From the NCBI GenBank assembly GCA_003165415.1, contig PLUC01000231.1, forward strand, positions 25,824 to 79,431: a stretch of 53,608 nucleotides of DNA, in the 5' to 3' direction. Positions 8,375-50,157 of the stretch are shown here, piece after piece. Source of the DNA: Holophagaceae bacterium (GTDB taxonomy: Bacteria; Acidobacteriota; Holophagae; Holophagales; Holophagaceae). A program made the position numbers and the translations under genes. A model generated the notes under the pieces. That model ran no database searches. It was not told where the DNA came from and was given only the letters and a program-made list of their open reading frames with translations. Within the stretch, counting starts at the first letter, position 1. The number at the start of each line of letters is the position of its first letter.

Positions 8375-9703
8375 ATGACCGGCACGGCCAGGACCGAACC
8401 TTCGTCCCAGACCAGCGGCCTGGTGCTGAGGATCCTGCTGACGATCAGCGTCTGCCATTTCCTCAACGACATGATCCAGTCGCTGATCCCGGCCATCTAC
8501 CCGATCCTGAAGACCTCGTTCCATCTCAGTTTCAGCCAGATCGGGCTGATCACCCTCACCGGCCAGCTGACGGCCTCGCTGCTGCAGCCCATGGTGGGCC
8601 TCTACACCGACCGCCGGCCCCAGCCGTTCTCGCTGCCGGTGGGGATGGGCTTCACCCTGGCCGGCCTTCTGCTGCTCTCCACCGCCGCCACGTTCCCGGC
8701 CCTGCTGCTGGCGGTGGGAATGGTGGGGGTGGGCTCGTCGGTGCTGCACCCGGAGTCCTCCCGGGTGGCCCGGGTGGCCTCGGGCGGCCAGCACGGCCTG
8801 GCCCAGGCGGTGTTCCAGGTGGGCGGCAACGGCGGCGGCGCGGTGGGGCCGCTGCTGGCGGCCTTCATCATCCTGCCCCGGGGGCAGGGCAGCATCGCCT
8901 GGTTCGCCATCGCGGCGCTGCTGGCGATGGGGCTTCTCACCACCGTGGGCGTGTGGTACCGGCGCCACGGCGCGGCCCTGCGCGTGCTGCGCGGCGCGGC
9001 CCGGGATGTGCGCGCGGCCGTGCATGACCGGCGGGTGGCCCCGGCCGTGTGCATCCTCATGGCCCTGATGTTCTCCAAGTACTTCTACCTGGCCAGCCTC
9101 ACCAGCTACTACACCTTCTACCTCATCACCCGGTTCCACGTGCCGGTGCGCAGCGCCCAGGTCCACCTGTTCGCGTTCCTGGGCGCGGTGGCGGCCGGGA
9201 CCCTCATCGGCGGCCCGGTGGGCGACCGCATCGGCCGCAAGGCGGTGATCTGGGGCTCCATCCTGGGCGTGCTGCCCTTCACCCTGCTGCTGCCCCACGC
9301 GAACCTGTTCTGGACCGGGGTGCTCACGGTGGTGATCGGGCTGATCCTGGCCTCGGCCTTCCCGGCCATCCTGGTCTATGCCCAGGAGCTGATCCCCGGC
9401 AAGATCGGCACCATCTCGGGGCTGTTCTTCGGCCTGGCCTTCGGCCTGGGCGGCATCGGCGCGGCCCTGCTGGGGCGGCTCGCGGACCGCACCAGCATCG
9501 TGTACGTCTACCAGGTCTGCGCCTTCCTGCCCGCCATCGGACTGCTGGCCGGTTTCCTGCCGAATATGACTATGACTGAGGGGGGACCGCCCGCTCGCGG
9601 TGCTCGCTCTTCGTCCCCCCTCAGACTCCCCCACTCCATGCCCGGGCAGAGCCCGGACATGGAGTCTAGCCAGGTCAAACCTGGAACACCGAAATCTGCC
9701 TAG
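8375..9703 (+). CDS. fsr: MFS exporter of the fosmidomycin-resistance (Fsr) family, with an inserted C-terminal tail
   Basis: Twelve-helix major facilitator protein of 442 residues in the inner membrane. The N-terminal half closely resembles Fsr: [56 protein letters not shown] and [14 protein letters not shown]. Fsr-type proteins export drugs such as fosmidomycin; the natural substrate is unknown. The start has GGAG eight bases upstream. The last transmembrane helix ends near [10 protein letters not shown], where relatives are expected to stop soon afterwards. Here the frame enters an 87-bp repeated element (codons 402-430) and then reads 12 codons into the tail of the convergent chemoreceptor gene, overlapping it by 29 bp. 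The element therefore appears to have displaced the original stop codon. Confidence 0.88.
9578..9664 (+). repeat. 87-bp in-frame palindromic element, copy A (C-terminus of the Fsr-type exporter)
   Basis: First stem: GAGGGGGGAC at 9578-9587 pairs perfectly with GTCCCCCCTC at 9613-9622 across a 25-base loop. Second stem: CTCCATGCCCGGGC at 9634-9647 pairs with GCCCGGACATGGAG at 9651-9664 across a three-base loop, with one mismatch. A second copy of the same length and spacing lies at 47311-47397 and differs at 11 of 87 positions by hand count. The element is 29 codons long without a stop and begins exactly on a codon boundary of the exporter ([15 protein letters not shown]...). No T-tract follows, so it is not a standard terminator, although it sits at a convergent gene junction. 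Confidence 0.85.
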
Positions 9704-46801: not shown

Positions 46802-46881
46802 ACTAATTTCACCCTAAGGAAAAAACCGTTCGGGTGCAGAATGGGGAACGCTATTTATCATCCCCCAGCGCCGGAGCCTCC

Positions 46882-49800
46882 ATGGGTGCAAGCGCCGTCC
46901 AGCCAGCCAGGATCGTCACCGCCGCCGCCCTGTTCGACGGGCACGACGCCGCCATCAACCTGGTCCGGCGCCTGCTGGTGGACCACGGCGCCCAGGTCAT
47001 CCACCTGGGCCACGACCGCAGCGTGGCGGAGATCGCCAAGGCGGCGGTGGAGGAGGACGCCGACGCCGTGTGCGTCTCCTCCTACCAGGGCGGGCACATG
47101 GAGTTCTTCGGCTTCCTGGCCGAGCGGCTCCGGGCCGCCGGGGCGGGCCGGGTCAAGGTGTTCGGCGGCGGCGGCGGGGTGATCCTGCCCGAGGAAGTGG
47201 GCCGCCTGGAGGCCGCCGGCGTCGAGAAGATCTACACCCCCGCGGACGGCATGCGGCTGGGGGTGGACGGGATGATCCAGGACCTGCTGGACCGGATCAC
47301 CGATATCAACGAGGGGGGACCGCCCGCTCGCGTTGCTCGCTCTTCGTCCCCCCTCGTACTCCCCCTCGTCATGTCCGGGCAAAGCCCGGCCATGACGTCT
47401 GACATGAACGTCCCTGCCTGGGAGGACCGGCTCGGCCTGTCCCGGCTGCTCAGCGCGGCCCTGGCCCGGGGCCCGGTCCCGGACGGCCCCCCCGAGGTGC
47501 CGGTGCTGGGCATCACCGGCCCCGGCGGCTCGGGCAAGAGTTCCCTCTGCGACGAGCTGATCCGGCGCCTGCTGCTGGATTTCCCGGAGCTGCGCGTGGG
47601 GGTGCTGGCCATCGACCCCACCCGCAAGCGCACCGGCGGCGCCCTGCTGGGGGACCGCCTGCGCTGCAACAGCGGCGGCGACGAGCGGGTGTTCTTCCGC
47701 AGTGTGGCCGCGGAGGGCGGGCCGGACACGGTGGCGTCGGTGCGCCGGGGGGTGGCCGTGCTGAAGCGGGTCTGCGGCCTGATCCTGGTGGAGACCAGCG
47801 GCATCGGCCAGGGCGATACGGACATCATCGAGATGGCCGATCTGCCCGTGTACGTCATGACCAGCGAGTTCGGCGCCGGCACCCAGCTTGAAAAGATCAA
47901 CATGCTGGATTTCGCCCGGATGGTGGTCATCAACAAGTTCGAGGACAAGCGCGCCGAGGACGCGCTGGCCCTGGTGCGCCGCCAGCTCCGGCGCAGCCGC
48001 CGCTTCCCGCCCCCGGCCTCGGACCTGGACCCGGACCGGGACCTGCCGGTGTACGGCACCGCCGCCGCCCACTTCAATGACCCCGGCGTGGACCGGCTCT
48101 ATCTGGACCTGCTGGCCGTCCTGCGGGAGCGGGGCCCCGAGCCATGGCGCTCCAGCCTGCCCGATCCGGGTCCGGCCGCCTTCTCCTGCGAGCGCGCCGC
48201 GCCCATCATCCCCTTCGAGCGCAGCCGCTATCTCCAGGAGATCGTCCAGGCCGTCCGCGGCTACCGGCAGCGGTCCGAAGCCCTGGCGGCCGGCGCCGAC
48301 CGGCTCCAGGCCCTGGAGACCGCCAGCCGGGAGCTGGGCGACGACTCCGAACCCCTGCTGCAGCGGGCGGCCCAGGCCCGCCGGGACCTGGGGCCGGAGG
48401 GCGCCGCCCTGCTGGAGCAGTGGGACGAACTGAACCGGGCCTACTCGGGGGAGGCCTTCACCTACCGGGTGCGGGGCCGGGACCTGTCCCAGCCGCTGTA
48501 CACCCTGAGCCTGTCGGGCACGAAGATCCGCAAGGTCTCACTGCCCGCCACCGACCGCCTGGGCGACATCGTCCGCTTCCTGCGCCAGGAGAATGTGCCC
48601 GGCCGGTTCCCGTACACCGCCGGGGCCTGGACCTTCCGCCGCGCCGACGAGGACCCCAAGCGCCAGTTCGCCGGCGAGGGCGGGCCGGCCCGGACCAACC
48701 GCCGGTTCCACTTCCTGTGCCAGGGGGAGTGTTCCCGGCGTCTGTCCACCGCCTTCGACTCGGTCACCCTCTATGGCCAGGACCCGGACGAACGCCCGGA
48801 CATCTATGGCAAGATCGGCGAAAGCGGCGTCAGCATCGCCACCCTGGACGACATGAAGCAGCTCTACCAGGGGTTCGACCTGTGCGACCCCGCCACCTCA
48901 GTGTCCATGACCATCAACGGCCCCGCCCCGGTGATCCTGGCCATGTTCTTCGAGACCGCGGTGGACCAGCAGCTGGACCGCCACCGCCAGAGCGCGGGCG
49001 TCCAGGCCATTGCGCCGGACACCGCCGCCCGGATCCGGGCCGAGACCCTGCGCAGCCTGAGGGGCACAGTCCAGGCCGACATCCTCAAGGAGGATCAGGC
49101 CCAGAACACCTGCATCTTCTCCATCGAGTTCGCCCTGCGGATGATGGGCGACGTGCAGGCGTTCCTGATCGAGCACGGCATGCGCAACTACTATTCCGTG
49201 AGCGTATCGGGCTACCACATCGCCGAGGCCGGGGCCAACCCGGTCACCCAGCTGGCATTCACCCTGGCCAACGGCTTCACCCTGGTGGAGTACTACCTGA
49301 GCCGCGGCATGGCCATCGACGCCATCGCCCCCAACCTCTCGTTCTTCTTCAGCGCCGGCCTGGACCCGGAATACGCCGTGCTGGGCCGGGTGGCCCGGCG
49401 CATCTGGGCCATCGCCATGCGCGACCGCTACGGCGCCAGCGAGACCAGCCAGAAACTCAAGTACCACGTGCAGACCTCGGGGCGCTCGCTGCACCTCAAG
49501 GAGATGAAGTTCAACGACATCCGCACCACCCTGCAGGCCTTCACCGCCCTCACCGACAACTGCAATTCCCTGCACACCAACGCCTACGACGAGGCCCTCA
49601 CCACCCCCACCGAGGAGTCGGTGCGCCTGGCCATGGCCATCCAGCTCATCACCACCCGGGAGCTGGGGCTGTACCGCAACGAGAACCTGTTCCAGGGCTC
49701 GCACTTCATCCAGAAGCTCACCGATGACGTCACGGAGGCGGTGCTGGAGGAGTTCACCCGCCTGAACGCCCGGGGCGGCGTGCTCCGGGCCATGGAGACC

Positions 49801-50157
49801 CAGTACCAGCGCTCCCGCATCCAGGAGCAGTCCCTGCTCTACGAGACCCGCAAGCATTCCGGCGAGCTGCCGGTGGTGGGCGTCAACACCTTCATCCAGG
49901 AGCACGAGCCGGTCCAGGCCCCGCGCCCGGTGATCCGGTCCAGCACCGAGGAGAAGGACCTGCGCCTGCGCGAGCTGAGGGACTTCCAGCGCCGGCACCG
50001 GGACGAGGCCGGCCCTGCCCTGGAGCGCCTGCGGGAGCAGGTGCGCCGGGGCGGCAACCTGTTCGAGACGCTGCTGGAGACCGTGCGGGTCGCCAGCCTG
50101 GGCCAGATCACCGCCACCCTGTTCGAATTGGGCGGCCGCTACCGCCGTTCCATGTGA
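46882..50157 (+). CDS. icmF: Fused isobutyryl-CoA mutase (IcmF) with an inserted linker element
   Basis: Adenosylcobalamin enzyme of 1,091 residues that interconverts isobutyryl-CoA and butyryl-CoA and carries its own G-protein chaperone. Order: B12-binding domain (about 8-140) with D19-G-H21-D, H21 being the cobalt ligand; G domain with Walker A G210-I-T-G-P-G-G-S-G-K-S; and mutase barrel from about 530. The residues that set substrate choice are F596 in RQFAGEG and Q741 in KEDQAQNTC. This Phe/Gln pair is the isobutyryl type; methylmalonyl-CoA mutase has Tyr/Arg. Residues 144-172 are encoded by an 87-bp repeat in the linker between B12 and G domains. The ATG at 46882 has GGAG six bases upstream; a GTG at 46834 is less likely. 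Followed by acyl-CoA dehydrogenase and carboxylase genes. Confidence 0.95.
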   Translation: MGASAVQPARIVTAAALFDGHDAAINLVRRLLVDHGAQVIHLGHDRSVAEIAKAAVEEDADAVCVSSYQGGHMEFFGFLAERLRAAGAGRVKVFGGGGGVILPEEVGRLEAAGVEKIYTPADGMRLGVDGMIQDLLDRITDINEGGPPARVARSSSPLVLPLVMSGQSPAMTSDMNVPAWEDRLGLSRLLSAALARGPVPDGPPEVPVLGITGPGGSGKSSLCDELIRRLLLDFPELRVGVLAIDPTRKRTGGALLGDRLRCNSGGDERVFFRSVAAEGGPDTVASVRRGVAVLKRVCGLILVETSGIGQGDTDIIEMADLPVYVMTSEFGAGTQLEKINMLDFARMVVINKFEDKRAEDALALVRRQLRRSRRFPPPASDLDPDRDLPVYGTAAAHFNDPGVDRLYLDLLAVLRERGPEPWRSSLPDPGPAAFSCERAAPIIPFERSRYLQEIVQAVRGYRQRSEALAAGADRLQALETASRELGDDSEPLLQRAAQARRDLGPEGAALLEQWDELNRAYSGEAFTYRVRGRDLSQPLYTLSLSGTKIRKVSLPATDRLGDIVRFLRQENVPGRFPYTAGAWTFRRADEDPKRQFAGEGGPARTNRRFHFLCQGECSRRLSTAFDSVTLYGQDPDERPDIYGKIGESGVSIATLDDMKQLYQGFDLCDPATSVSMTINGPAPVILAMFFETAVDQQLDRHRQSAGVQAIAPDTAARIRAETLRSLRGTVQADILKEDQAQNTCIFSIEFALRMMGDVQAFLIEHGMRNYYSVSVSGYHIAEAGANPVTQLAFTLANGFTLVEYYLSRGMAIDAIAPNLSFFFSAGLDPEYAVLGRVARRIWAIAMRDRYGASETSQKLKYHVQTSGRSLHLKEMKFNDIRTTLQAFTALTDNCNSLHTNAYDEALTTPTEESVRLAMAIQLITTRELGLYRNENLFQGSHFIQKLTDDVTEAVLEEFTRLNARGGVLRAMETQYQRSRIQEQSLLYETRKHSGELPVVGVNTFIQEHEPVQAPRPVIRSSTEEKDLRLRELRDFQRRHRDEAGPALERLREQVRRGGNLFETLLETVRVASLGQITATLFELGGRYRRSM
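47311..47397 (+). repeat. 87-bp in-frame palindromic element, copy B (inside icmF)
   Basis: First stem: GAGGGGGGAC at 47311-47320 pairs perfectly with GTCCCCCCTC at 47346-47355 over a 25-base loop. Second stem: CGTCATGTCCGGGC at 47367-47380 pairs with GCCCGGCCATGACG at 47384-47397 over a three-base loop, with one mismatch at the same position as in copy A. Relative to copy A at 9578, arm bases 2 and 3 are changed on both sides so that pairing is kept (T-A to G-C, and C-G to T-A). It starts on a codon boundary and encodes EGGPPARVARSSSPL and 14 more residues with no stop, in the same frame as copy A. Confidence 0.88.

Follow-up and report, generated by a model that had tools for sequence, protein, structure and literature searches.

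A short two-hairpin element of Holophagaceae found at predicted stop codons and in frame within proteins

Introduction

Why do two unrelated genes of one bacterium carry the same short stretch of DNA, in the same reading frame and without a stop? The question is raised by the window analysed here, the whole 53,608-nt stretch of a Holophagaceae genome (NCBI GenBank assembly GCA_003165415.1, contig PLUC01000231.1, positions 25,824 to 79,431), in which the initial annotation had pointed to two 87-bp segments, one in an exporter gene and one in icmF, and had read them as copies of a dispersed element. Rickettsia, an obligate intracellular bacterium, is the best-known source of palindromic inserts that keep the reading frame.

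Results

The window holds two copies of a 99-bp unit

A repeat search of the window paired positions 9571-9667 with 47304-47400 at 86% identity over 97 bp, confirming the places of the two segments; this pair is one of at least 60 direct-repeat families in the window. Folding confirmed two equally spaced stem-loops per copy, with z-scores of -5.5 and -4.1 (+ strand), and none of 200 shuffles folds as well. Both copies are open in one shared frame, as had been observed, because the other two forward frames each contain a stop; in copy 1 these frames are closed at the left edge, and in copy 2 at the right end. The 87-bp borders drawn initially were right in location, but compared with the 99-bp unit they start 8 bp too late and end 4 bp too early. 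That the length is a multiple of three is real, but 99 bp is merely the commonest unit length (31 of the 92 units measured at fixed model borders, followed by 95 bp in 19 and 96 bp in 17; range 92-119 bp, too short to code for a transposase).

Copy 2 (47303..47401, + strand) is a complete unit, 33 codons in length, in frame in icmF (46834..50157, +), the gene for a fused isobutyryl-CoA mutase/GTPase (NF045497). It lies in the linker between the B12-binding and GTPase domains, and IcmF scores above the NF045497 cut-off despite the copy inside it (1540.5 bits vs 1500, residues 24-1107 aligned), which bears out the internal placement. Its borders were set by analogy with filled/empty pairs of other copies. 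Hairpin 1 (47309..47357, +), drawn from the fold, the letters and two-sided changes in helix 1, has a 12-bp stem, ACGAGGGGGGAC/GTCCCCCCTCGT, and a 25-nt loop; hairpin 2 (47367..47397, +), drawn from the fold, has 13 pairs, one mismatch and a 3-nt loop. The target triplet to the left (47300..47302, +), assigned from left-flank counts and from the identity of filled and empty triplets at other sites, is CCG where the consensus is CTG. Copies 2 and 1 match the covariance model described below with 114.4 bits (G000:C187:73123-73222) and 118.2 bits (G000:C187:35390-35489), respectively.

Copy 1 (9570..9668, +), likewise a 99-bp unit in frame, lies in an MFS transporter gene (8375..9703, +; PF07690, MFS_1, 113.8 bits), so the host had been assigned to the right family; the copy sits at the C-terminal end and not in mid-protein, and the name 'Fsr' was not confirmed. 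The one close same-genus orthologue of the exporter (in G004) matches as far as residue 401, beyond which its own tail, of 23 residues, is different. The preceding triplet is TGA, not CTG, and the fold, pair counts and letters place hairpin 1 at 9576..9624 (+; CTGAGGGGGGAC/GTCCCCCCTCAG) and hairpin 2 at 9633..9665 (+).

The element is dispersed through the family and has probably moved recently

The genome from which the window is taken (G000) is a fragmented assembly of 4.84 Mb in 273 contigs. A DNA search of it found the element family at once (40 of 76 candidates scored), and a covariance-model search, which had been proposed as a check, gave further copies: with a model built from 24 copies of this genome, at least 60 own-genome matches were obtained at E<=1e-4 and at least 76 at E<=0.01, both counts being lower bounds because 150 of 5,345 first-look candidates were scored. 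At E<=0.001, matches occur in 58 of the 77 family genomes, and the carriers belong to 8 of the 11 genera. Together with the many copies in this genome and the lack of the insert in all 12 IcmF orthologues that cover its site, this distribution supports the original idea of a dispersed element tolerated inside proteins. Matches per genome range from 0, as in four of five same-genus relatives (G001-G004), to at least 53, as in both G018 and G077.

The exact hairpin 1 pattern was found in 71 stretches of a species-genome collection, 70 of them titled Geothrix (a member of Holophagaceae, Acidobacteriota), Holophagaceae or Acidobacteria. The remaining match lies in a Bacillota metagenome-assembled genome (L217, JAJTBC010000164.1) and has a 384-nt stretch in common with a locus of our genome at 83%; this contig is probably mis-binned. 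A scan of viral contigs for the same pattern gave no match. Rfam had no match in the window at gathering scores, and over seven loci gave one sub-threshold match, away from the element.

Two copies on different contigs of our genome differ at 1 of 99 positions, and five own copies differ from each other at 1 to 4 of 99, at different places. Such near-identical copies at separate places argue for movement in the recent past, and the mobility of the element is thus supported. That the element is mobile and non-autonomous we take as nearly certain. Our overall reading, which we hold to be probable, is of a short element that typically measures 95-99 bp, bears no gene and carries hairpins near both of its ends.

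Both hairpins are kept by compensatory changes

Among the 24 own copies, 94.9% of cells pair, and two-sided changes occur in 29 cells vs 9.0 in shuffles. In 94 distinct related rows, two-sided changes are found in 18 of 26 pairs (13 of 14 in helix 2) and in 224 cells, vs 41.7 in shuffles and at most 51 when the partner is slid by one to three columns. Both alignments lean towards this structure, since it was hand-drawn for the first one and the model guided the fit of the second. Compensatory changes thus keep both hairpins, which are different from each other, lie near the unit ends and have stems of 12 and about 15 bp. Alignments of filled and empty orthologous sites show that the unit starts with AYATGA and ends with GTCTG, or with GTCTA in the main subfamily of our genome; by eye, the ends AYATGA and CGTCTG are not inverted repeats of each other. 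G018 carries a tandem array whose four units follow in 99-bp steps, three of them complete and the fourth lacking hairpin 2, as expected if a unit lands after the terminal CTG of another.

Other palindromes and repeats were seen beside the element. In 18 of 32 examined own copies, mostly lower-scoring ones (among them L249, L254, L258, L260, L262 and L275), part of hairpin 1 is replaced by a perfect palindrome of 20-36 nt with CGCATGCG at its centre, which would fit the insertion or exchange of another palindromic element. A second long non-coding repeat, which starts with TGCAGTTTGGAC, runs for up to 276 nt before contigs end (own-genome loci L256, L281-L283, L285 and L289-L314). In most of the copies examined it adjoins a hairpin directly, either hairpin 2 of the element or palindromes of other families; many of its copies lie at contig ends, and it probably breaks the assembly. 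A relative of this repeat forms an inverted pair around a stretch of ~530 bp (L293, about 1501-2030; G005:C89:9267-9796), resembling a MITE with long inverted ends.

Most carriers lack a Y1 transposase

A Y1 (IS200/RAYT-type) transposase (PF01797) is present in 13 of 77 family genomes and in only 9 of the carriers; it is absent from 49 of 58, a count limited by incomplete assemblies, and these Y1-less carriers include the element-rich G018 (99% complete), G013 and G008. With the RAYT profile NF047646, none of the 77 genomes scored above the cut-off and 11 had weaker matches. No element match (E<=1) was found in 29 loci around Y1-type matches (83,865 bases, two own loci counted twice). With no Y1 gene in 49 of 58 carriers, the mover was not identified by this search. 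Our genome contains two intact IS200-type transposase genes (L031, G000:C270; L032, G000:C2), and the CCCCGGCAGAGCCGGGG hairpin near the ends of these genes differs from the hairpins of the element. At L190, a gene lies between two direct copies of the element; judged by eye from its ORF translation, it is not transposase-like.

The lack of a transposase in most carriers would also be expected of a relic, that is, an extinct CGTC- or GTAG-type REP system that has lost its transposase and no longer moves, and Di Nocera et al. report the same lack for CGTC repeats, for which no dedicated transposase is known in the part of their paper drawn on here (PMC3733652). We regard this reading as doubtful: the near-identical copies at different places argue for recent movement, and the tags that define the two superfamilies do not fit. 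CGTC repeats, which include RPE-4 and RPE-6, are described as having an 8-9 bp stem, a 4-5 nt loop, an unpaired CGTC (TGTC, CCTC) tag and a tail near CCA (PMC3733652). In the Holophagaceae element, the CGT at the right end forms part of the hairpin 2 stem, AGTC is found in many own copies, and two different hairpins occur, with stems of 12 and about 15 bp and a 3-nt loop. GTAG REPs, hairpin repeats lying predominantly downstream of genes (PMC3733652, PMC2817692), have a defining tag that is not consistently found at the ends of the element, and no RAYT above the cut-off accompanies it in the 77 genomes.

The element favours positions 3' of CTG-like triplets and apparently makes no target duplication

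At 8 sites, 26 filled/empty pairs were aligned, and in 21 of them the filled and the empty sequence share the left triplet. TTG replaces CTG in one of the remaining five pairs, and the flanks have diverged in four. An exact CTG precedes 22 of 46 own copies, vs a background triplet frequency of 2.5%, and 47 of 92 copies overall, so that the preference is partial. With an 87-bp query lacking the left flank, read at a fixed offset, CTG was found in 9 among 26 of the first 30 copies; triplet counts on matches of model R1 lean towards CTG because R1 contains left-flank columns. Positions 3' of CTG-like triplets are therefore occupied at a rate above chance. It is present or absent at orthologous sites: the insert in Lon is missing from all six aligned relatives and that in RadA from all nine, and a second genome, G066, carries the RadA insert.

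These sites also bear on whether the element is a MITE moved by a DDE transposase, with a target duplication of 4-5 bp (CTGAY) that decays on the right side. Two stop-codon sites would agree with this, since at L134 and L236 the filled sequence has CTGAC or CTGAT on both sides and the empty one has CTGAC or TTGAT once. At L145 and L135, however, the left triplet is CGG or CCG, as in the empty site, and the right end is still CTG; because these unusual left triplets differ from it, the right CTG is the element's own and need not come from a duplication. On the right side of 74 related copies, the T and G after GTC are kept in 57 and 58, but the next base is A in only 26, and the unit has no terminal inverted repeat. 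We therefore hold a DDE-moved MITE to be unlikely. Insertion is apparently without target duplication, and at stop-codon sites a CTGAY duplication of 4-5 bp is indistinguishable from none. A further candidate duplication, the 12-bp direct repeats CCGATATCAACG / CTGACATGAACG flanking the IcmF copy, was dropped, because most other right flanks and the empty sites have no such repeat.

For the mobile element, single-strand transposition appears the likelier route. A putative trans-acting enzyme would recognise the end hairpins on single-stranded DNA and join the strand 3' of the triplet, in the fashion of an IS200/IS605 (HUH) transposase.

Copies are rare in the truncating phase 0 and enriched at predicted stop codons and in the open frame

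Genes were predicted with a self-trained dicodon model, which replaced a first codon model that could not separate the strands. We classified 92 sites, comprising 36 of 61 own rows and 56 of 82 related rows, the latter a selection from 113 without duplicate places and the weakest rows; copies near contig ends, truncated copies and some orthologous repeats were left out of the 92. After the unit had been taken out, the sites were compared with 20,364 control CTG sites (CTG only) of the same loci. Predicted native stop sites, with the unit between TG and A, account for 14 of the 92 copies vs 0.48% of the control, and the open forward phase for 17 vs 3.4%. In contrast, the truncating phase 0 holds 4 copies vs 43% of control sites; the third phase, in which a codon's TG and the A of the unit make a stop, holds 10 (vs 11.6%). 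Twenty copies lie antisense in a gene (vs 32%) and 27 are intergenic (vs 9.6%). At least three orthologous repeats occur among the 14 stop sites (L129/L148, L186/L248 and L178/L150), and binomial odds overstate these differences because the 92 sites are not independent.

The phases follow from the ends of the unit. A is the first base of the consensus unit, so that a landing after C-TG creates a TGA stop; judging from the sequence, this would be harmless at a native CTGA stop, where copies are enriched, and this stop-rewriting left end is a simple explanation for the many copies directly behind genes. The other two forward phases would give either a stop at the second codon, which is rare, or an open frame of about 33 codons, in keeping with the in-frame inserts in IcmF, Lon and others. 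An open-frame insert is predicted to be tolerated in linkers and tails, where it would add a peptide resembling Asp-Met-Asn/Thr-Glu-Gly-Gly-Pro-Pro. The length is divisible by three in 16 of 17 open-phase copies vs 40 of 75 others, and none of 13 own copies of 95 bp was flagged as running in frame through a gene.

A stricter in-frame test, which requires a coding signal to either side and the absence of a stop, picks out 5 of 61 own matches and 9 of 82 related rows (two of the nine orthologous). The comparison of intergenic with in-frame positions suggested at the outset thus upholds in-frame copies, but as the smaller part in our genome, many copies being intergenic or at stop codons. In our genome the hosts are IcmF, an amidohydrolase, a patatin-like protein, a sugar transferase (reversed) and an unidentified protein; the sugar transferase site is in frame, reversed, by the stricter test and intergenic in the 92-site classification. 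Further own hosts are a thiolase, with the copy at the predicted start, where it may be untranslated, and the exporter of the window, with the copy at its end. Among the related hosts are Lon, GatB (reversed), RadA (reversed), a pyridoxal decarboxylase (reversed), a PD-(D/E)XK/AddB-like protein, an HGSNAT-like protein and a response regulator. The sugar transferase copy (L096) lies between two near-identical stretches of the C-terminal part of the protein, and may have been inserted within a duplicated segment.

The enrichment right at stop codons, on the same strand, could also mean that the element is a conserved functional RNA, a 3'-end stabiliser or bidirectional terminator placed after stops, whose intragenic copies are accidental, and its very stable hairpins with compensatory changes would suit such a role. 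This seems improbable to us given the presence or absence of copies at orthologous sites, the antisense in-frame copies in GatB and RadA, the tandem arrays and the range from 0 to at least 53 matches per genome within one family; moreover, no consistent T-run was found after hairpin 2, and the window has no Rfam match at gathering scores. That the segments are ordinary conserved protein sequence common to IcmF and the exporter, for which nothing speaks beyond the two in-frame positions, is already refuted: the segment is absent from all 12 IcmF orthologues that span the site, most own copies are in frame in no gene, and hairpin pairing is kept by compensatory change.

Discussion

As a short mobile element without a gene of its own, the Holophagaceae repeat is close in several respects to the palindrome-associated transposable elements (PATEs) of Haloquadratum, non-coding relatives already described, as far as these are covered by the part of PMC3119063 drawn on here. 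Both have no terminal inverted repeats and carry palindromes near both ends, and both are numerous and too short to code for a transposase (PMC3119063). Other small repeats insert into the palindromes of PATEs, a further likeness (PMC3119063). PATEs make no target duplication (PMC3119063); for the Holophagaceae element, L145, L135 and the right-end counts favour none, and the stop-codon sites are ambiguous. The two differ in that PATE palindromes match IS605-type transposons of the host (PMC3119063), whereas no IS605-type element with the ends of ours was found in the 29 loci around Y1-type matches, and in that insertion in frame into proteins is seen here and does not figure in that part of the PATE description (PMC3119063). 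IS200/IS605 elements themselves insert 3' of a short fixed sequence without duplication and have subterminal hairpins, as set out in the part of PMC8612924 drawn on here; the Holophagaceae element likewise has subterminal hairpins and lies 3' of a short sequence, CTG-like and not absolute. ISDra2, however, codes for TnpA and targets TTGAT, and IS608 targets TTAC (PMC8612924), whereas our element is non-coding, prefers CTG-like triplets and is found mostly in carriers without Y1 genes.

Its effect on genes recalls other repeats. REP ends often supply the stop of a neighbouring gene, with TAG in GTAG REPs (PMC3733652, PMC2817692) and TGA in the Holophagaceae element. Intragenic REPs are in frame, many of them in genes of DNA synthesis and repair; more than half of these inserts are dimers or groups encoding 20-30 residues, and they are reported from several species besides Rickettsia (PMC3733652). 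RPE-4, RPE-6 and intragenic REPs are palindromic and in frame in genes, and for the CGTC type no dedicated transposase is known (PMC3733652); the Holophagaceae element is alike in all three. The likeness to Rickettsia palindromic elements that had been proposed therefore holds for behaviour, and fails for membership of the CGTC superfamily, RPE-4 and RPE-6 included, on published features. Altogether, the element behaves like PATEs, REPs and RPEs, and falls outside the GTAG and CGTC superfamilies by its tags, and outside the latter also by its stem and loop. In the part of PMC3733652 drawn on here, five phyla are given for CGTC repeats, those of the GTAG type are given for Proteobacteria, Cyanobacteria, Chloroflexi and the PVC group, and Acidobacteria appear once, for TIR-associated transposases.

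We tentatively extend the mobile-element reading to an idea that is possible, if speculative: an orphan element spread across the Holophagaceae, which would depend for its movement on an enzyme that is not of the known Y1/RAYT group. By the build of its ends it would rewrite stops behind genes and elsewhere add a peptide of ~33 residues, and it would thereby keep supplying new protein segments to core genes, lon, gatB and radA among them. The findings place an in-frame process comparable to that of Rickettsia in another phylum, including cultured isolates (Geothrix), with clear empty sites and with hosts that include lon, gatB and radA. They make two questions testable, namely what moves palindromic repeats that have no transposase, and how far the inserts are translated and tolerated.
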